DNA of 64,000 bases from Bacillota bacterium (GCA_029549985.1 JAKPIB010000046.1:1-64000), one strand, 5' to 3'; positions 19,085 through 29,826 are shown, counted from the first letter of the stretch. Program-made: numbers and translations. The notes: a model not told the origin generated them from the sequence alone.

Positions 19085-19305
19085 CTAAAGTTCACCTTCT
19101 ATGTCCTCAGTTCTTCATGAGATCATATGACCGGTATGCAGCCCGACTGCTGCCAGTCATAGAGTATATTGTACGCTAAAAAGTCAGGATTATCAGCGGT
19201 CGTACAGAATTGCCGGCAAGACATATGTACAGTACATGCAACCTAAGTGACCGTATTTGCGTCAAAGGTAATGGCAGTAGAAATTCAATGTAAGGAGTGG
19301 TTTAC
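19085..19305. other. Intergenic region with a short palindrome
   Basis: About 220 bases between the divergent phospholipase-like gene and the first envelope acylation gene. It holds a 13-bp palindrome, ATGTAC-A-GTACAT (19225-19237), which could be a regulator site. No clear sigma-A promoter, RNA gene or small reading frame was seen. Confidence 0.35.
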
Positions 19306-19824
19306 ATGAAGAAAATAATCTTAATAGTGCTGGCTTTCTTACTGGCAGCCGGTATTGTAGCATGCAAGACCGGAGATACCAATGCCGACCCGTCCGAGAA
19401 TCCTGGCGACAGCGTTCTGGAGGGAGATCTGGAGGACATCCTGGCTGAAATATACGATAAGGCAGAGCTGAAGGATACTTCCAAGGAGTTCATCGAAACA
19501 GGGCTTCAGACTGTGGAGATAACAACAGAAAACTGTGACTACCACCTTGGACTGAAGAGTATGGAAAATATCGAAAAGGCTATCGCATCCCAACCGATGC
19601 TGTCAACTTCGGCATACGTGTTGTGCCTGGTGCGCACAAAAGAAGGGGCAGACATCGAAAAGCTGAAAACAGATATCAAGGAAAATGTCAACCCATATAA
19701 ATGGGTATGTGTCGGTGTCCAGGAGGAAAACATCATCGTCGACAATATTGGCAATGTCGTGATCCTTATAATGTCCGACTACGACGCACAGGCGCTGCAT
19801 GAAGCATTCCTGTCACTGAAGTGA
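19306..19824 (+). CDS. DUF4358-type lipoprotein of the MBOAT cluster
   Basis: A small exported lipoprotein of 172 residues: MKKIILIVLAFLLAAGIVAC with the lipobox Cys at about residue 20, an acidic low-complexity linker, then a compact alpha/beta domain with repeated Val/Ile strands. Proteins of the DUF4358 type occur beside MBOAT acyltransferases in Clostridia; their role is not established. AAGGAG at 19292-19297 marks the ATG at 19306. Four bases separate it from the MBOAT gene, so they are co-transcribed. Confidence 0.75.
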   Translation: MKKIILIVLAFLLAAGIVACKTGDTNADPSENPGDSVLEGDLEDILAEIYDKAELKDTSKEFIETGLQTVEITTENCDYHLGLKSMENIEKAIASQPMLSTSAYVLCLVRTKEGADIEKLKTDIKENVNPYKWVCVGVQEENIIVDNIGNVVILIMSDYDAQALHEAFLSLK

Positions 19825-19828
19825 TACC

Positions 19829-21232
19829 ATGCTGTTTTCCAGCATTACTTTCCTGTATTATTTTCTGCCGGCAGTACTTGTTCTTTATTACCTGGTCCCG
19901 TCCAGCATGAAGAACACAGTTCTGCTGGCAGCCAGCCTGTTTTTTTACTTTTACGGAGAGCCGGCTTACTCGATTTTGATGATCATGGCATCCTTATCCG
20001 GATATCTGCATGGTTTATGGATCGAAAAGGCGAGAAACGGGCGATTCGCCAAAGTCCCTCTTGTATCCTCGATAATCCTGGGTCTGGGACCTCTTGTTTA
20101 CTTCAAATATACTGATTTCCTTATTTCCAACGTCAATACTGTATTTGGGTCAAACCTGACACCTCTGCGGCTGGCCTTGCCTATAGGCATCAGCTTCTAC
20201 ACATTCCAGATAATGTCTTATACCATAGACGTATATCGCGGTAAGGCAGGAGTACAAAGGAACTTTTTCGATTTTGCCACATATGTGTCCCTGTTCCCGC
20301 AGCTGATCGCAGGGCCGATAGTAAGGTATACCACGATAGAAGCCGAGCTTGAGAACCGCACCCATTCCCTGGATGATTTTGCCTATGGGGTCAACAGGTT
20401 CATAATAGGCTTGTCTAAAAAGGTACTGCTGGCAAATACCCTTGGAGAGCTTGGTAAGGTATTTGGTTCGATCGATGATAAGACGCTTTTATTATACTGG
20501 ACGTATGCCGTTGCCTTTACGCTGCAGATATACTTTGATTTTTCGGGCTACAGCGATATGGCTATCGGTATGGGGCGGATGCTGGGCTTCAGGTTTCTTG
20601 AAAACTTCAACTATCCCCTGATTTCCGGCTCCATTACGGAGTTTTGGCGCAGGTGGCATATGTCTCTGGGTACCTGGTTCAGAGACTATGTTTATATCCC
20701 GATGGGCGGCAACCGTGTATCCAGGCTGAAATGGCTTCGCAACATAACGGTGGTATGGTTGCTGACCGGGCTGTGGCATGGAGCGGAATGGAACTTTGTG
20801 ATCTGGGGACTGTATTTTGCCCTGTTTCTGGCCTTGGAAAAGCTTTTCCTCAAAAAACTCCTGGATAGAATTCCGTCTGTTTTCAGGCACCTTTATACGC
20901 TGTTCTTTATATTAATCAGCTTTGTGATATTCAATGCCGATGGGATGGCGGAATGTATCATGAACCTGAAAGGCATGTTTGGCATGCTGGGGGTGCCCCT
21001 TACAAGCAGCGCTACGACCTATTATCTGAGAAGCTATGCCCTTACCCTGGTAGTCGCTGCTATAGCTGCCACACCTGTTGTGACTGACCTTTTGAACAAG
21101 CTGTCTCAAAAGAGCAGGGGCGCTGCAATCATCAATGCTTTGGAACCGGTCGTGCTTGGCTTATTACTGCTTGTGGTCACAGGCTACCTTGTCGACGGTT
21201 CGTTCAACCCGTTCTTGTATTTCCGTTTCTGA
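19829..21232 (+). CDS. MBOAT-family membrane O-acyltransferase (AlgI/DltB-like) with C-terminal FxYxxF
   Basis: A polytopic membrane protein of 467 residues. MBOAT hallmarks are FYTFQIMSYTIDVYRG, LFPQLIAGPIVRY, FDFSGYSDMAIGMGRMLG, FWRRWHMSLGTWFRDYVYIP and the active-site His in LTGLWHGAEWNFVIWG. It moves an acyl group (acetyl from acetyl-CoA in the AlgI type) across the membrane to an extracellular sugar or polymer. The protein ends in NPFLYFRF, which matches FxYxxF, the acyl-accepting tail proposed for DltX and some MBOATs. With the DHHW protein that follows it forms a two-component O-acylation module. Confidence 0.92.
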   Translation: MLFSSITFLYYFLPAVLVLYYLVPSSMKNTVLLAASLFFYFYGEPAYSILMIMASLSGYLHGLWIEKARNGRFAKVPLVSSIILGLGPLVYFKYTDFLISNVNTVFGSNLTPLRLALPIGISFYTFQIMSYTIDVYRGKAGVQRNFFDFATYVSLFPQLIAGPIVRYTTIEAELENRTHSLDDFAYGVNRFIIGLSKKVLLANTLGELGKVFGSIDDKTLLLYWTYAVAFTLQIYFDFSGYSDMAIGMGRMLGFRFLENFNYPLISGSITEFWRRWHMSLGTWFRDYVYIPMGGNRVSRLKWLRNITVVWLLTGLWHGAEWNFVIWGLYFALFLALEKLFLKKLLDRIPSVFRHLYTLFFILISFVIFNADGMAECIMNLKGMFGMLGVPLTSSATTYYLRSYALTLVVAAIAATPVVTDLLNKLSQKSRGAAIINALEPVVLGLLLLVVTGYLVDGSFNPFLYFRF

Positions 21233-21251
21233 TGTCTGGAGGGGCCCGATT

Positions 21252-22355
21252 ATGAGCAGGACCATTAAGAATATAGTAGTTACGACATGTTTCATAGCAT
21301 TTATCCTGGGATTTTTCGTGATAAATGCAGTAGTGCCGGATGCAGAGCTTTCCCGCAGCGAACGGCGGAGGCTGGTAGCCTTGCCTGCATTTACCTGGGC
21401 GAAACTGTTTAGCGGTGACCTGTTTGAGGAGTTTGACAAGTATACCGTTGACCAGTTTGTTCTACGTGATTTCTTCAGAGGAGTGAAGGCCTACGCCAGC
21501 TACAACCTGTTCGGAAGGCTGGACAATAACGACATATACATGACAGATGGGAGCATCATTAAAATAGAGTATCCGCTCAATGAGCAGGCAGTGCTGAATG
21601 CAGCAAAGAAGTTCAACTATATTTATGAGCAGTATTTGAACGGCCTGGATGTGTATTATTCAGTCATACCGGACAAAAACTATTTTTCGGCACAGAAAAA
21701 CGGGCACCTGGCAATGGATTACAAGCGAATGCTTGAGCTGCTTCAAAGCGGAATTAAGGAGTATAAGTATATAGACATATTCGACTGCCTGGACCTGGAG
21801 GATTATTACAGTACCGATATACACTGGCGCCAGGACAGGATCATGGATGTGGCCGCCAGACTGCTGGAGGGAATGGGCAATCCCTATAGGCCTTCTGACA
21901 CACGATACGAAGCACGAAAGCTGACTCCTTTTTTTGGCTCCTATTACGGGCAGGCTGCCTTAAGGGTGCAGCCTGATGACCTGGTCTACATGACCAATGA
22001 TCTGCTGGAGACGGCAATCGTATATGATTTTGAAACCAGATCTGAGTCAAATGTGTATATGCCGGATAAGTTCAACGGCGTGGATCCCTATGATGTTTTT
22101 TTGTCAGGGGCAAAGGCCTTGCTTACCGTCACCAATCCCATGCCGGTTTCAGACAGGGAACTCATCATCTTCCGGGATTCCTTCGGCAGCAGCATAGCTC
22201 CCTTGCTGCTTGAAGGGTACTCCAGGATAACATTGGTAGACCTGCGCTATGTGGCAACTGGCCTGCTGGATGAATATATCGATTTCTCTGAAAATACAGA
22301 TATCCTTTTCCTATACAACACAATCATCATAAACAACAGCTATATGCTGAAGTAA
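21252..22355 (+). CDS. DHHW-family (AlgJ/AlgX-like) SGNH acyl-transfer protein
   Basis: A 367-residue extracytoplasmic protein with one N-terminal membrane anchor (IVVTTCFIAFILGFFVINAVV). The SGNH-like catalytic elements are STDIHWRQ (Asp/His) and IIFRDSFGSS (Ser). Such proteins accept the acyl group from the MBOAT partner and pass it to a polysaccharide outside the cell. The frame is open from 21135, inside the MBOAT gene, but GGAGGGG at 21237-21243 selects the ATG at 21252. It is in the same operon as the MBOAT gene upstream. Confidence 0.85.
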   Translation: MSRTIKNIVVTTCFIAFILGFFVINAVVPDAELSRSERRRLVALPAFTWAKLFSGDLFEEFDKYTVDQFVLRDFFRGVKAYASYNLFGRLDNNDIYMTDGSIIKIEYPLNEQAVLNAAKKFNYIYEQYLNGLDVYYSVIPDKNYFSAQKNGHLAMDYKRMLELLQSGIKEYKYIDIFDCLDLEDYYSTDIHWRQDRIMDVAARLLEGMGNPYRPSDTRYEARKLTPFFGSYYGQAALRVQPDDLVYMTNDLLETAIVYDFETRSESNVYMPDKFNGVDPYDVFLSGAKALLTVTNPMPVSDRELIIFRDSFGSSIAPLLLEGYSRITLVDLRYVATGLLDEYIDFSENTDILFLYNTIIINNSYMLK

Positions 22356-22528: not shown

Positions 22529-23365
22529 ATGGAGATATTGGATCTGATAAAAGCTATATTATTGGGGATCATAGAAGGGATCACGGAATGGCTGCCGATA
22601 AGCAGTACCGGCCATTTGCTGTTGGCAGAGGAACTGCTGGGCATAGGCGAAGGAACGACTGCAATGACAGACAAGTTTATGGAGATGTTCCGGGTGGTCA
22701 TCCAACTGGGCGCTATATTAGCGGTCGTAGTGCTGTATTTCAACAAGCTCAACCCCTTTTCACCCAGAAAGACGAAACAGCAAAAGGCTAATACATGGAA
22801 TCTGTGGTATAAGGTCATAGTAGCCGTATTGCCCGCTGCAGTTATAGGCGTTTTGCTGGATGATTGGTTCGATATGCATTTTTACAACTATGTAACGGTA
22901 TCGATCACCCTGATCATATATGGTATTCTGTTTATAGCTATAGAGCTGAGTAATAAAAACCGAAGGTATCAAATACGGGACTTGTCACAGATGACATATA
23001 AGACAGCAATAATGATCGGCTTATTCCAGGTACTGGCCCTTGTTCCGGGCACATCGAGGTCCGGAGCTACCATAATCGGGGCCATGCTCATAGGGACATC
23101 AAGGTATGTCGCTACTGAGTTCACATTTTTCCTTGCCATACCTGTTATGCTGGGAGCGAGCCTGCTCAAGCTGGCCAAGTTCACCTTTGATTCCGGTGCG
23201 CAGGTAATATTGCTGGCCGCAGGAATGCTGGTTTCATTTGTGGTATCAATACTGGCGATAAAATTTCTGCTCGGGTATATAAAACGGAATGATTTCAAGG
23301 CCTTTGGCTATTACCGCATAGCGATCGGCATAGTTGTGCTGGCTTATTTTCTACTGTTTAACTAA
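22529..23365 (+). CDS. uppP: Undecaprenyl-diphosphatase
   Basis: Regenerates undecaprenyl phosphate, the lipid carrier for peptidoglycan and other wall polymers, and gives resistance to bacitracin when abundant. The family motifs [20 protein letters not shown] (catalytic Glu and Ser) and [20 protein letters not shown] (P-loop-like with the essential Arg) are complete. At 278 residues with about eight membrane helices it is typical. It sits between two envelope acylation clusters, all on the plus strand. Confidence 0.96.
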
Positions 23366-23464
23366 GATTTTCACTAAATTTAGATTAATGTTAGAAATCC
23401 AATATAAATTGTAAAGAATATCTGCTATATTTATTTACAGACATAACGGGCAGAGGTGTTGCTT

Positions 23465-24721
23465 ATGAGTCCAAGCCACAAAAACAAGAAAGTGATATTA
23501 ATATTGCTGACAGCTTCTTTAGTTATCCTGGCAGCAGCTGCTATAAAGATAATCGCTCTCGATCAGGTAAAAAGCGTAGTGACGGTGGAGGCAGGCGATC
23601 GTTTTCCTGATATATCCAGCTTTCTTAGACATGAAAATGCAAAAGGCAGCTTTATGACCGATATCACCAAAATAGATATGAATGTTACCGGTGTATATGA
23701 TATTGAGATCCGATCCGGCAACAGGACTTATATATCAAAGCTTGAAGTGGTAGATACCACCGCACCAAAGGCCAGCGTGAGAGAGCTGGAGACCTGGGTC
23801 GGTGAAAGGAAATCTGCCATTGATTTTGTTGACAAGGTTATCGATATTTCAACGGTCGACGTGTATTACAGGCAAGAACCTGATTTTGAGCAGGTAGGCG
23901 TTCAGAATGTATATATAGTACTGGAGGATCAAAGCGGCAACAAATCGGAATTCAAAACCAGGCTTACGGTCAAGGCAGATGAAGAGCCCCCGGTCATAGA
24001 AGGAGTAACGGACCATACAGTGTACATTGGCGAGACAATTGCATACAGAAAGGGTATAACAGTCACAGACAACAGGGATGAAAATGTGGATTTCACAGTA
24101 GACAGCAGTTCTGTCAACCTAAGAAAAGAAGGCCAATATGTGGTCATATACACTGCGGTCGACAGCTCGGGCAATAAGGCTGAGGTGAAAGCCACTGTGA
24201 ATGTGATACCCAAACCGGAGAGCCTTATTGCCGAAGAAAAGCTGTATGAGCTGGCGGATCAGGTGCTGGCGGAAATAATCACCGACGATATGACCGATAT
24301 AGATAAGCTTTGGGCTATATACAAGTGGACAAGATTGCACATTAAATATACCGGTGACTCTGACAAGACCAATTGGGTGAAAGAGGCTACCCGGGGCATA
24401 CAAAAAGCTACCGGTGACTGCTTCACCTATTATGCGACCTCCCAGGCGCTCCTGACAAGGGCCGGATTCGAAAATATGCCCGTATTCAGGGACAGGGAGG
24501 ATGACTATCACGTTTGGAACCTGGTCAAATATAACGGCAACTGGTATCATTTTGATACGACTCCTTCCCGTACCGGATATTTCTATGTTTGCTTCTTGCG
24601 GACGGATGCAGAGGAAGAGGAATATTCAAAATGGTGCGTGGATTATCATTCGTTTGACAAGAGCAAGTATCCCCGCACAGGTACGGAACCTATCAAGCAT
24701 CATCGGAACCTGTGGGGATGA
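23465..24721 (+). CDS. Membrane-anchored protein with Ig-like repeats and a transglutaminase-like domain
   Basis: A 418-residue extracellular protein. One N-terminal membrane helix is followed by beta-sandwich Ig-like modules, recognisable from repeated DTTAPKAS, DQSGNK, EEPPVIEG and DSSGNKA sequences, and by a C-terminal transglutaminase-like domain. The catalytic triad appears as ATGDCFTYY (Cys), DDYHVWN (His) and WYHFDTTP (Asp). Such domains act as cysteine peptidases or cross-linking enzymes at the cell wall. AGAGGTG at 23453-23458 places the start at the ATG 23465. It lies directly before the Dlt-like cluster. Confidence 0.85.
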   Translation: MSPSHKNKKVILILLTASLVILAAAAIKIIALDQVKSVVTVEAGDRFPDISSFLRHENAKGSFMTDITKIDMNVTGVYDIEIRSGNRTYISKLEVVDTTAPKASVRELETWVGERKSAIDFVDKVIDISTVDVYYRQEPDFEQVGVQNVYIVLEDQSGNKSEFKTRLTVKADEEPPVIEGVTDHTVYIGETIAYRKGITVTDNRDENVDFTVDSSSVNLRKEGQYVVIYTAVDSSGNKAEVKATVNVIPKPESLIAEEKLYELADQVLAEIITDDMTDIDKLWAIYKWTRLHIKYTGDSDKTNWVKEATRGIQKATGDCFTYYATSQALLTRAGFENMPVFRDREDDYHVWNLVKYNGNWYHFDTTPSRTGYFYVCFLRTDAEEEEYSKWCVDYHSFDKSKYPRTGTEPIKHHRNLWG

Positions 24722-24744: not shown

Positions 24745-26268
24745 ATGTATCGCAATATATTGGAGTATCTGGAGCAAACGGTCAGGAGGGTGCCTGATAA
24801 GGCGGCCTATGCTGACGAACGAACGAGTATCACTTTCAGAGAAGTATACGATCAGAGCAGGGCTATAGGCACCTATCTATACAAGCAGGGAATATACAAG
24901 CAGCCTGTTGTAGTGTTCATGAAAAGGCAGCCCAAAACGATAGCAGCCTTTTTCGGCGTGGTATACGGAGGCAGCTTTTATGTACCGATAGATGAGGAAA
25001 TGCCGCACTTTCGAGTTGAGCTGATATTCAACAACCTGGATCCGCGGGCTGTCATTTGTGACCAGGATTCCCTGGATTCCCTTGCCCAATATGGATACAG
25101 AGGGATAGTATATCTGTATGATGATATAATAAAGACCGAAGCTGACGACGCATTGCTTAGCGACATCCGTGATCGGGCTATAGATACCGACCCTGTTTAT
25201 ATAGTCTACACATCCGGCTCTACCGGCATACCCAAAGGTATAGTCGGAAGCCACAGGGCGGTCATCGATTATATCGAAAGCCTGTCCGAGGTGCTTGAAT
25301 TCAGTGAAGACACGATATTTGGCAGCCAAAGCCCCCTGTACTTCGATGCCTGCCTCAGGGAGATCTTCGGGACTGCCAAATTTGGAGCTCAGACCTACCT
25401 TATACCAAGAAGCCTGTTCATGTTTCCCCTGAAGCTGGTAGAGTTTCTGAACGAATACAAGATAAACACGATTTGCTGGGTCGTACCTGCCTTGACCATG
25501 ATATCATCATTCAAAGTCCTGGATAAGGTAGTGCCCCAATACCTGCATACCATCGCCTTTGTGAGCGAAGTGTTCCCGATAAAGCAGTTCAATATCTGGA
25601 GAAAGGCCCTGCCAAATGCCAGGTTCGTCAACCTGTACGGGCCTACTGAGGCAACGGGTATATGCTGCTATTACAAGGTCGACAGAGATTTTGCCGAAAA
25701 CGAGGTCCTGCCTATCGGAAGGCCACTGCGTAACACTGAGATCATCCTGCTGGATGAAAACAACAGAATCCCGCCCAGAGGCGAGCTGGGAGAGATCTGC
25801 ATCAGGGGTACCTGTCTGACCCATGGCTATTATAACGATATGGAAAGGACCAGGGAGGTCTTTGTTCAAAACCCTTTGAACGATAAGTATCCGGAGCTCA
25901 TATACAGGACCGGAGATCTGGGCCGTATCAATGAACGGGGCGAGCTGATATTCGTATCCCGCAAGGACTTTCAGATCAAGCATATGGGCCATCGCATAGA
26001 GTTGGGTGAGATCGAAGCAAATGTGAATCTTATCGAGGGGGTACACAGTGCCTGCTGTGTATATGACAGAGAAAGCGCCATGATAGCGCTGTATTATGTA
26101 GGAGAATTAAGCCCGGGAGATGTAGCGGCGATCCTCAAGCAAAAGCTGCCAAGGTATATGATGCCCAACATTATAGAAGCGCTTGACCGCATGCCGCTGA
26201 CGACCAATGGGAAAATCGACAGGGCTTATCTTAAAGAATATACAGAGAATAAAAGGAAGAGGAGATAA
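24745..26268 (+). CDS. Amino-acid adenylating enzyme of a Dlt-like pathway
   Basis: A 507-residue ANL-superfamily enzyme that activates a carboxylate with ATP and loads it on a carrier protein. Core motifs are VYTSGSTGIPKGI (A3), YFDACLREIF (A4), NLYGPTEAT (A5), GELGEICIRG, YRTGDLGR (A7), GHRIELGEIEA (A8) and the catalytic lysine in TTNGKIDR (A10). The Asp of the A4 motif is the residue that binds the alpha-amino group in NRPS and DltA enzymes, so the substrate should be an amino acid, possibly D-Ala. Identity with true DltA is not certain. The carrier protein gene begins two bases downstream. Confidence 0.88.
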   Translation: MYRNILEYLEQTVRRVPDKAAYADERTSITFREVYDQSRAIGTYLYKQGIYKQPVVVFMKRQPKTIAAFFGVVYGGSFYVPIDEEMPHFRVELIFNNLDPRAVICDQDSLDSLAQYGYRGIVYLYDDIIKTEADDALLSDIRDRAIDTDPVYIVYTSGSTGIPKGIVGSHRAVIDYIESLSEVLEFSEDTIFGSQSPLYFDACLREIFGTAKFGAQTYLIPRSLFMFPLKLVEFLNEYKINTICWVVPALTMISSFKVLDKVVPQYLHTIAFVSEVFPIKQFNIWRKALPNARFVNLYGPTEATGICCYYKVDRDFAENEVLPIGRPLRNTEIILLDENNRIPPRGELGEICIRGTCLTHGYYNDMERTREVFVQNPLNDKYPELIYRTGDLGRINERGELIFVSRKDFQIKHMGHRIELGEIEANVNLIEGVHSACCVYDRESAMIALYYVGELSPGDVAAILKQKLPRYMMPNIIEALDRMPLTTNGKIDRAYLKEYTENKRKRR

Positions 26269-26270
26269 TC

Positions 26271-26501
26271 ATGAATACATTACTGAGAATGCTTAAAGGG
26301 CTGCACCCCGATGTAGACTTTGAAACCTGTGAAACTTTGATAGATGACAAGATACTGGATTCTTTTGATATCATAACTTTAGTAGCAGACATCAACTCCG
26401 AGTTTGACGTAACCATACCTGCCGAAGAGATAATACCTGAAAACTTCAACTCAGCAAGGGCTTTGTATGCATTGATAGAACGTCTATCCAATGAGGACTG
26501 A
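26271..26501 (+). CDS. Acyl carrier protein of the Dlt-like cluster
   Basis: A 76-residue four-helix carrier protein. The phosphopantetheine attachment serine lies in DKILDSFDIITLV at about residue 30. The region after helix 2 (FDVTIPAEEIIPENFNSARAL) looks more like a general carrier protein than like DltC, which has a Trp-containing motif there. It follows the adenylating enzyme by two bases and precedes an MBOAT gene, so its loaded amino-acyl thioester is presumably the MBOAT substrate. Confidence 0.88.
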   Translation: MNTLLRMLKGLHPDVDFETCETLIDDKILDSFDIITLVADINSEFDVTIPAEEIIPENFNSARALYALIERLSNED

Positions 26502-26515
26502 CAGAGGAGGAGCCT

Positions 26516-28105
26516 ATGCTGTTTACATCTTACAGCTTCATTGCTTTCCTGGCTTTGCTCTTTACAGTATACTATCTGGTCCCCAGGCGTTTTCAATGGA
26601 TGCTGCTGCTCTTTGCCAGCTACCTGTTCTATTTTATCGCAGGGCCTACCTATGTGATATATATATTTGTCACCACGCTTTCCACCTATCTGGTCAGCGT
26701 GAAGCTGGAATCGCTGAACAAGGCCCAGTCTGCCTACCTGGCAGAACACAAGGACATGTCCAGGGAGGAGAAGAAGGAGTACAAGGCGTCTGTCAAATCA
26801 AAGCAGCGGAAATGGCTGGCCGCCTGCCTGCTGTTCAATTTTGGCATACTGGCGGTCGTTAAATACACCAATTTCGCGATTGCCAACATAAACGCCGTTA
26901 TAGGCGCATTTGGCGGCGGCACTCAGCTATCGTTCCTAAAGCTGGCCCTGCCCTTGGGAATATCCTTTTATACCTTCCAGACAATGGGATACATCATTGA
27001 TGTATATAGAGGAAAGCACCCTGCAGAAAGGAACTTTTTCAAGCTGGCATTATTCGTATCATTCTTTCCTCAGCTCATACAAGGCCCTATAAGCAGGTTC
27101 AGTGATCTGGCACAGACCTTGTACAAGGAGCATTCCTTCGACAGCAGGAACATAAGCTTTGGTATCCAGAGGATCCTATGGGGCTACTTCAAGAAGGTGG
27201 TCCTGGCAGACCGGATACTCGTTGCTGTAAACACCCTGATCAAGAATCCGGATACCTATCAGGGCGCATATGTACTGATCGGCATGTTGTTTTATGCATA
27301 CCAGCTCTATGCTGATTTCACCGGCGGCATAGATATTACGATAGGTATTGCCCAGGTACTTGGTATAGAAGTGAAAGAGAACTTCCACAGGCCGTACTTT
27401 TCCAAGAACATTGTAGAGTACTGGAGAAGATGGCATATTACCATGGGGACATGGTTCAGGGATTATCTTTTCTACCCCCTTTCGGTAAGTAAGCCTATGC
27501 TGAACATATCCAAGCATTCGAGGCGTTTGTTCGGCGAAGCCTTGGGCAAGCGAATACCGGTGTACCTGTCTACGTTCATTGTATGGTTTGCAACGGGCAT
27601 ATGGCATGGAGCAAGCTGGAATTTCATAGTATGGGGGCTCATGAACTGCGTCGTTATCCTGATCTCCCAGGAGCTCAAGCCCTTTTATGACTGGTTCCAT
27701 TCCAGGTTCAACGTAGCCGGCAAGTTATATTTCAAAGTTTTTCAGATCGTACGCACGGTTTTGCTCATGAGCTCGATCAGGATGTTCGATTGCTACAGGG
27801 ATGTACCAATGACCTTCAGGATGTTTGGTACGATATTTACAAGGTTCAGTTTCAAACCGTTTTTTGATGGTTCACTCCTAAAGCTAGGACTGGATTTGTC
27901 TGACTATATTGTGCTTTTGGCCGGCCTGATCGTTCTGACGATAGTCAGTGTAAGCCAGGCCAGAGGCAGTGTTAGACGCCAGCTGGAGAAAAAGCCTGTG
28001 TTGGTAAGGTATGCTGCCTATTACGCGCTCATACTATCCATATTGGTTCTGGGTGCATACGGAGTAGGGTATGATTCATCCCAGTTCATATACAATCAGT
28101 TTTAG
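26516..28105 (+). CDS. MBOAT-family acyltransferase (DltB-like) with C-terminal FxYxxF
   Basis: A 529-residue polytopic protein of the MBOAT family. Key stretches are FYTFQTMGYIIDVYRGK, FFPQLIQGPISRF, YADFTGGIDITIGIAQVLG, EYWRRWHITMGTWFRDYLFYPLS and the active-site His in TGIWHGASWNFIVWG. A charged cytoplasmic loop near residue 80 (EHKDMSREEKKEYKASVKS) is an insertion relative to the first MBOAT in this window. The protein ends in SSQFIYNQF, again FxYxxF at the very C terminus. With the adenylating enzyme and carrier protein it should transfer an aminoacyl group to the outside of the cell. Confidence 0.92.
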   Translation: MLFTSYSFIAFLALLFTVYYLVPRRFQWMLLLFASYLFYFIAGPTYVIYIFVTTLSTYLVSVKLESLNKAQSAYLAEHKDMSREEKKEYKASVKSKQRKWLAACLLFNFGILAVVKYTNFAIANINAVIGAFGGGTQLSFLKLALPLGISFYTFQTMGYIIDVYRGKHPAERNFFKLALFVSFFPQLIQGPISRFSDLAQTLYKEHSFDSRNISFGIQRILWGYFKKVVLADRILVAVNTLIKNPDTYQGAYVLIGMLFYAYQLYADFTGGIDITIGIAQVLGIEVKENFHRPYFSKNIVEYWRRWHITMGTWFRDYLFYPLSVSKPMLNISKHSRRLFGEALGKRIPVYLSTFIVWFATGIWHGASWNFIVWGLMNCVVILISQELKPFYDWFHSRFNVAGKLYFKVFQIVRTVLLMSSIRMFDCYRDVPMTFRMFGTIFTRFSFKPFFDGSLLKLGLDLSDYIVLLAGLIVLTIVSVSQARGSVRRQLEKKPVLVRYAAYYALILSILVLGAYGVGYDSSQFIYNQF

Positions 28106-28111
28106 GAGGAC

Positions 28112-29191
28112 ATGATGAAAAAAAGGAAACTGATTATAAACATCACGGCTGTATGCTTGCTGATCATAAGCCTGCTTTTGCTTCAGAGGCTGCTTATGCC
28201 CAAATATGTCTCTGCAATAGTTGAAGGCTCGCTTATAGAAGAGTATTACCAGGAGACCACCGGACATGATGTCATATTTGTTGGAGACTGTGAAGTATAT
28301 GAAAGCTTCTCACCGATCACTTTGTGGGAGAATTATGGCATAACCAGCTATATCAGGGGGAGTGCCCAGCAGCTCATATGGCAGTCCTATTACCTGCTTG
28401 AAGAAACTCTGCAATATGAAAAACCTGAAGTCGTGGTCTTCAATGTGCTGGCAATGAAATATGACAAGCCGCAGAAAGAGGAGTACAACAGGCTCACACT
28501 GGATGGCATGAGACTGTCTCCCATAAAAATAAAGGCCATCCAGGCATCTATGACCGAGAAGGAAAACCTGATCGACTATATTTTCCCTATATTAAGGTAC
28601 CATTCAAGGTGGGATGAGCTGACAGCCGAAGACTTTCAATATATGTTCAAGAAGAAAAAGCTCTTCCATAACGGGTATTACATGAGAGTGGATGTAAGGC
28701 CCGTCACTACCGTACCAGAGGGAAGAAAGCTGGCAAATTATCGATTCGGGGACAACGCCTATTATTATCTTGATAAGATGGTGGACCTATGCAGGGACAA
28801 TGATATTGACCTTGTCCTGGTAAAGGCACCCAGCCTGTATCCGTACTGGTATGATGAGTGGGAGGCTCAGATTGAGGAATATGCAGCAAAGCACGATTTA
28901 CTGTACATTAATTTCCTGGAGCTTATAGATGAGATCGGGATCGATTTCAATACAGACACCTATGACGGCGGCCTTCACATGAACCTGTCGGGAGCGGAAA
29001 AGCTCTCGGTGTACCTCGGCAAGGTCCTTGCAGAGAACTATGGCCTGAAGGACCACAGAAATGACGATGTCTACAAGGAAGTCTGGGAGGAGAAGGTGGA
29101 TTTCTACTATGACATGAAAGCTCAGCAGTACTATGAGCTGGAGAAGTACGGGTACCTGAAAAGCTTTGGAGCAAAACCTCCAACCAGCTGA
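28112..29191 (+). CDS. DltD-like extracytoplasmic SGNH-fold protein with Cys at the nucleophile position
   Basis: A 359-residue protein with one N-terminal membrane helix and a globular extracellular domain. The block I motif reads VIFVGDCEVYESFSP; SGNH enzymes normally have Gly-Asp-Ser or Gly-Ser-Ser, so Cys replaces the catalytic Ser. The C-terminal Asp/His block is intact (DGGLHMNLSGAEKL). In Dlt systems, DltD occupies this position and passes D-Ala to teichoic acid. A Cys nucleophile would form a thioester intermediate instead of an ester. The gene follows the MBOAT gene by six bases. Confidence 0.75.
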   Translation: MMKKRKLIINITAVCLLIISLLLLQRLLMPKYVSAIVEGSLIEEYYQETTGHDVIFVGDCEVYESFSPITLWENYGITSYIRGSAQQLIWQSYYLLEETLQYEKPEVVVFNVLAMKYDKPQKEEYNRLTLDGMRLSPIKIKAIQASMTEKENLIDYIFPILRYHSRWDELTAEDFQYMFKKKKLFHNGYYMRVDVRPVTTVPEGRKLANYRFGDNAYYYLDKMVDLCRDNDIDLVLVKAPSLYPYWYDEWEAQIEEYAAKHDLLYINFLELIDEIGIDFNTDTYDGGLHMNLSGAEKLSVYLGKVLAENYGLKDHRNDDVYKEVWEEKVDFYYDMKAQQYYELEKYGYLKSFGAKPPTS

Positions 29192-29233
29192 TTTGACATA
29201 AACCGTTCAAATTTAAGAAAGAGGGTAGAAGGA

Positions 29234-29761
29234 ATGAAGAAGATCATATCTATCATGTTATTGCTGGCCTTGCTTGTGGCAGGATGCGCAGGCGGCGCCG
29301 CGGGGAACAACAATGATAACAATAATGGCGACAAGAATTACAACGGCAACGGGAAGGTAGACGGATATGTATTTGAAACAGGCGGTGCCGTCATAGCTAT
29401 GAATGCAGAGGTAGCTCCAATAGTTGAAAAGCTGGGTGAGCCTCTGGAGTATTTTGAAGCCGAAAGCTGTGCTTTCCAGGGTATGGAGAAGATATACACT
29501 TACAGCGGCTTCGAGATAAAAACCTATGAGATCGACGGTGTCGACTGTGTGCTGTCAGTCACGCTGCTTGATGATTCGGTCAAGACTAAAGAAGGGATAT
29601 ACTTGTCCTCATCCCTCACTGACGTGCTCGAAGCTTATGGCGATGACTATACGGAAGGCTTTGGCTTGTATACCTATACGAAAGGCAACTCTGAGCTCTC
29701 TTTCCTGGTTGAGAACGATGAAGTGGTATCTATAGAATATAAGGCACGGACAGAAGAGTAA
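29234..29761 (+). CDS. Lipoprotein closing the Dlt-like cluster
   Basis: A 175-residue exported lipoprotein: MKKIISIMLLLALLVAGC with the lipobox Cys at residue 18, an Asn/Asp/Gly-rich linker of about 25 residues, and a small beta-rich domain with a Cys pair (Cys-Ala-Phe and Asp-Cys-Val). I do not recognise a named family. It ends the cluster, just before a strong terminator, and is probably an accessory factor or acceptor-binding protein for the acylation system. Confidence 0.7.
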   Translation: MKKIISIMLLLALLVAGCAGGAAGNNNDNNNGDKNYNGNGKVDGYVFETGGAVIAMNAEVAPIVEKLGEPLEYFEAESCAFQGMEKIYTYSGFEIKTYEIDGVDCVLSVTLLDDSVKTKEGIYLSSSLTDVLEAYGDDYTEGFGLYTYTKGNSELSFLVENDEVVSIEYKARTEE

Positions 29762-29797
29762 ATCAAAGTGACAGAGCAAATCAGCCAAATAAAGCAT

Positions 29798-29826
29798 AGC
29801 CCCCTGTTGTACAGGGGGCTATTTTT
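29798..29826 (+). terminator. Intrinsic terminator after the Dlt-like cluster
   Basis: A perfect 10-bp stem AGCCCCCTGT (29798-29807) / ACAGGGGGCT (29811-29820) with a three-base loop, followed by ATTTTT. It ends the envelope operon before the convergent pckG. Confidence 0.92.

Follow-up and report, generated by a model that had tools for sequence, protein, structure and literature searches.

A conserved Dlt-like operon predicted to attach an acidic D-amino acid, with D-aspartate as first candidate, to a cell envelope polymer

A stretch of 64,000 nucleotides from a Bacillota bacterium (GCA_029549985.1 JAKPIB010000046.1:1-64000), referred to as the window, was found to carry an operon that on balance we read, from sequence alone, as a Dlt-like machine transferring an acidic D-amino acid, with D-aspartate the likeliest. 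Dlt is the well-studied route by which an amino acid is placed on surface polymers via an MBOAT-SGNH pair. The operon would constitute a second carrier-dependent route, for another amino acid, in Clostridia without canonical Dlt, including species from the gut and from digesters. An earlier note on the window had described an adenylating enzyme, a carrier protein, an MBOAT, an SGNH protein and a lipoprotein in that order, and all five were recovered at the coordinates it gave. Added here are the ranking of D-aspartate as first candidate, a proposed mechanism employing a fused shuttle and a Cys-type SGNH protein, two further operon members and the breadth of the system. Gene content, motifs and conservation are reported as observed.

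The five genes A, C, B, D and L run head to tail on the + strand from 24745 to 29761 (Table 1). They are separated by 2 (A-C), 14 (C-B), 6 (B-D) and 42 (D-L) bases, and each start is preceded by a purine-rich stretch resembling a ribosome binding site. The genes do occupy this interval, to which the cluster had been delimited, but the operon also takes in the upstream gene TG. This gene ends 23 bases ahead of A and in most relatives lies directly upstream of A or of a racemase gene, and it is on the basis of this conservation that TG is assigned to the same operon. The TG protein matches Pfam Transglut_core (2.1e-9) as well as Ig-like domains, and its Cys-His-Asp triad is intact. A predicted terminator closes the operon after L.

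Table 1. Features of the operon in the window.
Feature	Position	Strand	Description
TG	23456-24721	+	membrane-anchored/secreted Ig-like and transglutaminase-like protein, Cys322-His352-Asp367 triad
A	24745-26268	+	507 aa stand-alone amino acid adenylating enzyme
C	26271-26501	+	76 aa phosphopantetheine carrier protein, Ser31 in LDSFDI
B	26516-28105	+	529 aa MBOAT, His307 and His364, C-terminal FIYNQF
D	28112-29191	+	359 aa membrane-anchored SGNH-fold putative acyltransferase, Cys60/Asp285/His289
L	29234-29761	+	175 aa lipoprotein, lipobox VAGC
Terminator	29796-29822	both	strong bidirectional intrinsic terminator, 12-pair stem with 7 GC pairs, T tail

Conservation of the operon was evaluated by a scan in which each species was represented by a single genome and an alignment of D served as query; it returned at least 238 related loci, of which the best 80 were fetched. 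The operon was collinear in these best 80 of at least 238 loci, with the order TG-A-C-B-D-L kept and median gaps of 8 (A-C), 11 (C-B), 17 (B-D) and 28 (D-L) bases. The recurrence of the same order with short gaps in tens of species means that the arrangement is not due to chance. Hosts among the best 80 loci included Acetatifactor, Blautia, Herbinix, Mobilitalea and Anaerocolumna of the Lachnospiraceae, Alkalibaculum, Fusibacter, Thermoclostridium-like MAGs, Longibaculum and, from the Bacillales, Gottfriedia. Close relatives of D were rare among 398 genomes drawn evenly from the phylum, and the system is thus widely spread rather than universal; it was present in 9 of the 13 genomes of the window's GTDB family. 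In one relative from this family the operon is split into TG-A-L at one place and TG-racemase-C-B-D-L at another (loci L137 and L174), every part still being in the genome. The operon is apparently a widespread relative of Dlt that has so far gone undescribed; among the papers searched, none treats aspartate racemase and MBOAT together.

The substrate prediction rests in part on the adenylating enzyme. A scored 329.5 bits against the amino-acid-adenylation model (cut-off 317.4) and 260-261 bits against the DltA family model, below the cut-off of 559.85. Its pocket layout is shared with NRPS adenylation domains, the nearest solved one being that of linear gramicidin synthase LgrA, whereas A differs from these in that it is stand-alone, with a separate carrier and no condensation domain. 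Residues Asp201, Ala202, Arg205 and Val273 of the window enzyme correspond to GrsA 235, 236, 239 and 301. The Asp of motif A4 had been said to be kept and the substrate to be an amino acid; both claims are borne out, the first by Asp201, equivalent to GrsA Asp235, and the second by that residue together with the adenylation model score. In DltA the methyl group of D-Ala is held in a small cavity formed by Leu, Met and Cys (PMC8972799). Almost all of the 65 orthologues of A have Ala, Lys/Arg and Gly/Val instead of these residues, and the window has Ala, Arg and Val. The suggestion that the amino acid may not be D-Ala is strengthened accordingly, as all three DltA cavity residues are lost.

Pocket codes were read at GrsA positions 235, 236, 239, 278, 299, 301, 322, 330 and 331; at position 278 (Cys or Trp) the alignments may disagree by one residue. 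The code D-A-K-C-A-G-L-G-M was found in 54 of the 65 orthologues and D-A-R-C-A-V-L-G-I/V in 7, the window included, with Lys at position 239 in 57/65 and Arg in 7/65. As judged from these alignments, the pocket has retained the amino-group Asp, opened the cavity and placed a basic residue at position 239, which could readily pair with the carboxylate of a substrate side chain. With few exceptions, members combine either Arg239 and Val301 or Lys239 and Gly301. These two pairings possibly mark two substrate classes within the family, and since the window has Arg/Val and the majority Lys/Gly, the window substrate could differ.

The second line of evidence comes from a gene of about 238 codons that lies between TG and A in most relatives and encodes a member of the aspartate-type amino acid racemase family. 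Of 62 scorable loci, 52 have it immediately ahead of A and in the same orientation; in Gottfriedia it is downstream of L. Four operon racemases tested scored 196-217 bits against TIGR00035, a broad family with a cut-off of 93, and the nearest solved structure is the aspartate racemase of P. horikoshii (1jfl, 2.9e-54). As in this enzyme, and also in McyF, the operon racemases have the catalytic pair Cys82 and Cys194 and the equivalents of Arg48 and Lys164, all four identical in 45/45 sequences; Arg48 and Lys164 bind the substrate carboxylate in the P. horikoshii enzyme. Unlike these racemases, those of the operon form a clade of their own (support 0.994, with no unlinked racemase within), their substrate is predicted, and the window operon is without one. 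The basic pocket residue and the racemase, as two separate lines, lead to the prediction of an acidic D-amino acid, and the type of racemase ranks D-Asp first and D-Glu second.

The same machine working with D-Glu (or L-Glu), its racemase being of glutamate type or broad, is the next reading to be weighed and is considered unlikely, though less so than those that follow. D-Glu is always supplied by MurI, a MurI-like gene was seen, and the Glu code of surfactin synthetase likewise begins with Asp235-Ala236-Lys239. A second source of D-Glu would however be superfluous, and the racemase of the operon is distinct from MurI: its nearest match is aspartate racemase, and operon racemases reached 34-49 bits with the glutamate racemase model against a cut-off of 147.

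For D-aspartate, supply in the window organism was followed beyond the operon, which has no adjoining racemase gene. The window genome encodes one aspartate-type racemase, unlinked to the operon (contig C16) and of a clade other than that of the operon racemases. Among eight genomes with a racemase-free operon, an unlinked racemase over the cut-off was present in six and absent from two, compared to 45 of 149 genomes across the phylum (one-sided Fisher p 0.015, uncorrected for kinship), which lends weak support to a supply of D-amino acid. The window's own unlinked racemase was set aside as firm support on account of its different clade and the 45/149 baseline. On C16 (L143:3406-6931; also L142) an ATP-grasp ligase resembling D-Ala-D-Ala ligase, a Mur ligase and the racemase lie in a row, a set that suggests peptidoglycan precursors containing an unusual D-amino acid, perhaps D-Asp; given its clade and these neighbours, the C16 racemase may serve peptidoglycan.

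The remaining parts resemble those of two acylation systems, Dlt and PatA/PatB. C exceeded the PF00550 cut-off (23.1 against 20.8 bits) and is homologous to DltC, yet it scored far under the cut-offs of two DltC models (26.4 against 68 and 18.4 against 52.35 bits), in keeping with the description of this carrier as unlike DltC. B was over the PF03062 cut-off with a conserved catalytic-type His364 and had DltB as its nearest PDB match (1.4e-22), though it scored 140.9 bits with the DltB model against a cut-off of 375. Its residues 524-529, FIYNQF, are the last codons before the stop and belong to a DltX-like tail (E 0.028); all 70 B proteins examined end in FIY[N/S][Q/R]F. No ORF for a separate DltX microprotein was seen in the window operon, while an ORF of 47-48 aa precedes most of 13 canonical dltA controls. 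The Tyr of FxYxxF carries the acyl group in PatA, and in canonical Dlt the motif is located on the separate DltX (PMC12148441).

D gave a weak GDSL match. Its AF2 model has a low mean pLDDT (67), and the core alone was used; this core resembled TesA (Z about 13) and PatB (Z 11.1), and Foldseek gave DltD with a probability of 0.97, though with E 0.016. The nucleophile position is Cys (GDC) in 81/81 orthologues, with the Asp285/His289 pair kept, and Ser in more distant D-like proteins; a Cys nucleophile would imply a thioester intermediate in place of an ester. The L model (pLDDT 86.8) has a CAP-associated/YjgB/TagH-C-terminal-like fold, with Z scores of 11.1 to 4ifa, 10.1 to YjgB and 8.0 to the C-terminal domain of TagH, a teichoic acid exporter subunit. 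On the basis of this model, L may plausibly bind a wall polymer.

B and D thus have the PatA-type features of a C-terminal FxYxxF on the MBOAT and a separate partner of SGNH fold, as known from PatA/PatB in peptidoglycan O-acetylation. PatA however uses acetyl-CoA as donor, whereas here A and C are predicted to supply an aminoacyl thioester; their presence in the operon suggests a carrier-bound donor rather than an acyl-CoA. MBOAT-SGNH pathways other than Dlt are said to be without a carrier protein (PMC12148441, 2025), and the operon would join the donor branch of Dlt to a fused shuttle of PatA type, a combination said to be absent outside Dlt.

By analogy with DltA/DltC, DltB/DltX/DltD and PatA/PatB, a racemase, encoded in the operon of most relatives and elsewhere in the window genome, would generate the D-amino acid, which A would adenylate and load onto the phosphopantetheine of C. 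B would carry the aminoacyl group across the membrane and place it on Tyr526 in the FIYNQF shuttle at its own C-terminus. From there the group would move to Cys60 of D, which would transfer it to a hydroxyl on an extracellular polymer, of the wall or the membrane, that is not classical LTA. The probable role of L is to keep the polymer or the complex at the membrane, and TG would act on the same envelope layer.

The acceptor was approached through the window genome (2.1 Mb, 96.7% complete). No LtaS, that is no PF00884 match over the cut-off, was found in it, the two weak sulfatase-family matches below the cut-off being a phosphoglycerate mutase-like protein beside enolase and a phosphodiesterase-like protein. 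TagF-type glycerophosphotransferase (PF04464) was likewise absent from this genome. Canonical DltA was over its cut-off in 1 of 43 genomes holding the system, that of Gottfriedia, and below it or missing in the other 42. Taken together, these results indicate that the acceptor is probably other than classical LTA or WTA, and the proposal that the polymer may not be a teichoic acid fits the same two absences from the window genome. The combination named in the note as counter-evidence, clear D-Ala specificity along with classical lipoteichoic acid genes, was not encountered at the level of sequence. No gene for polymer biosynthesis recurs in the flanks of the relatives, nor any extra metabolic gene, so that the gene neighbourhood gives no lead to the acceptor.

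Transfer of the aminoacyl group to protein, lipid or peptidoglycan, with TG cross-linking via the new amine, is quite improbable in our estimate. The conserved extracellular TG with its intact triad in the operon is consistent with such a role, but the closest characterised MBOAT-SGNH pairs, PatAB and Dlt, have glycans or teichoic acids as their targets. More speculatively, and with an expectation somewhat below that given to D-Glu, transfer to a polymer could define a third branch of envelope acylation, in which carrier-loaded D-aspartate, a Tyr shuttle fused to the MBOAT and a Cys-thioester SGNH protein modify a polymer of Clostridia, the free amine being a handle by which TG links proteins to that polymer.

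Ordinary Dlt D-alanylation with rearranged genes and diverged sequence is given still less weight. The operon and the DltX-DltA-DltB-DltC-DltD system of teichoic acid D-alanylation are alike in having an adenylating enzyme, a carrier, an MBOAT, an SGNH protein and, as predicted here, a carrier-bound aminoacyl donor. The four core parts are homologous to DltA, DltC, DltB and DltD, and A is the single AMP-binding gene of the window genome, which therefore has no DltA. The operon differs from Dlt, however, in its order A-C-B-D-L, in the shuttle being fused to the MBOAT instead of residing on a DltX microprotein, in the Cys for Ser of the SGNH protein, and in the addition of a transglutaminase, a lipoprotein and, in relatives, a racemase. 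Against D-alanylation stand the replacement of the D-Ala cavity across the whole family, the recurrence of an Asp-type racemase, and the lack of LtaS and TagF in the window genome. Gottfriedia, moreover, has both a canonical DltA and the A-C-B-D-L system; the canonical DltA of its family has the code D-L-M-T-L-C-T-V-A in 13/13 cases, with a racemase within 1.5 kb on either side of dltA in 0/13. By the features tested, the operon would work like Dlt and falls outside the Dlt D-alanylation family. Least probable of all is another racemase product, such as D-cysteate, or a racemase that has shifted towards a neutral amino acid. The CuyB cysteate racemase cut-off was passed by three of the four operon racemases tested, but the aspartate-type model scored higher in all four, and the flanks offer no recurring metabolic gene.

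The changed gene order, while present, is not special to this cluster, since sister A-C-B loci with different pockets occur in the same genomes (for example D-N-L-F-L-C-L-D-A and D-V-K-I-L-S-L-C-N). Sister adenylating enzymes were seen in L108, L109 and L112, followed by a carrier and an MBOAT in the latter two. In L112 the amino-group Asp is replaced by Ser, so its substrate is likely an acid that is not an alpha-amino acid. Two further loci (L111:1495-4202 and L115) encode an adenylating enzyme with the Lys239 code D-V-K-I-[M/L]-S-L-C-N, adjoined in L111 by a PLP decarboxylase-like gene, and are possibly yet another amino acid system. Dlt-like systems of A-C-B order appear to be diverse as a class.

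Directly upstream of the operon in the window lies a gene for the undecaprenyl pyrophosphatase UppP (22529-23365), an adjacency shared by the two nearest relatives (L012 and L013) only. Further upstream, 19297-22355 encodes a lipoprotein, a second MBOAT (19829-21232) and a DHHW/AlgX-like protein (21135-22355). The second MBOAT also ends in a shuttle motif, FLYFRF, and together with the DHHW/AlgX-like protein it would form a separate, probably CoA-dependent acylation pair without a carrier.
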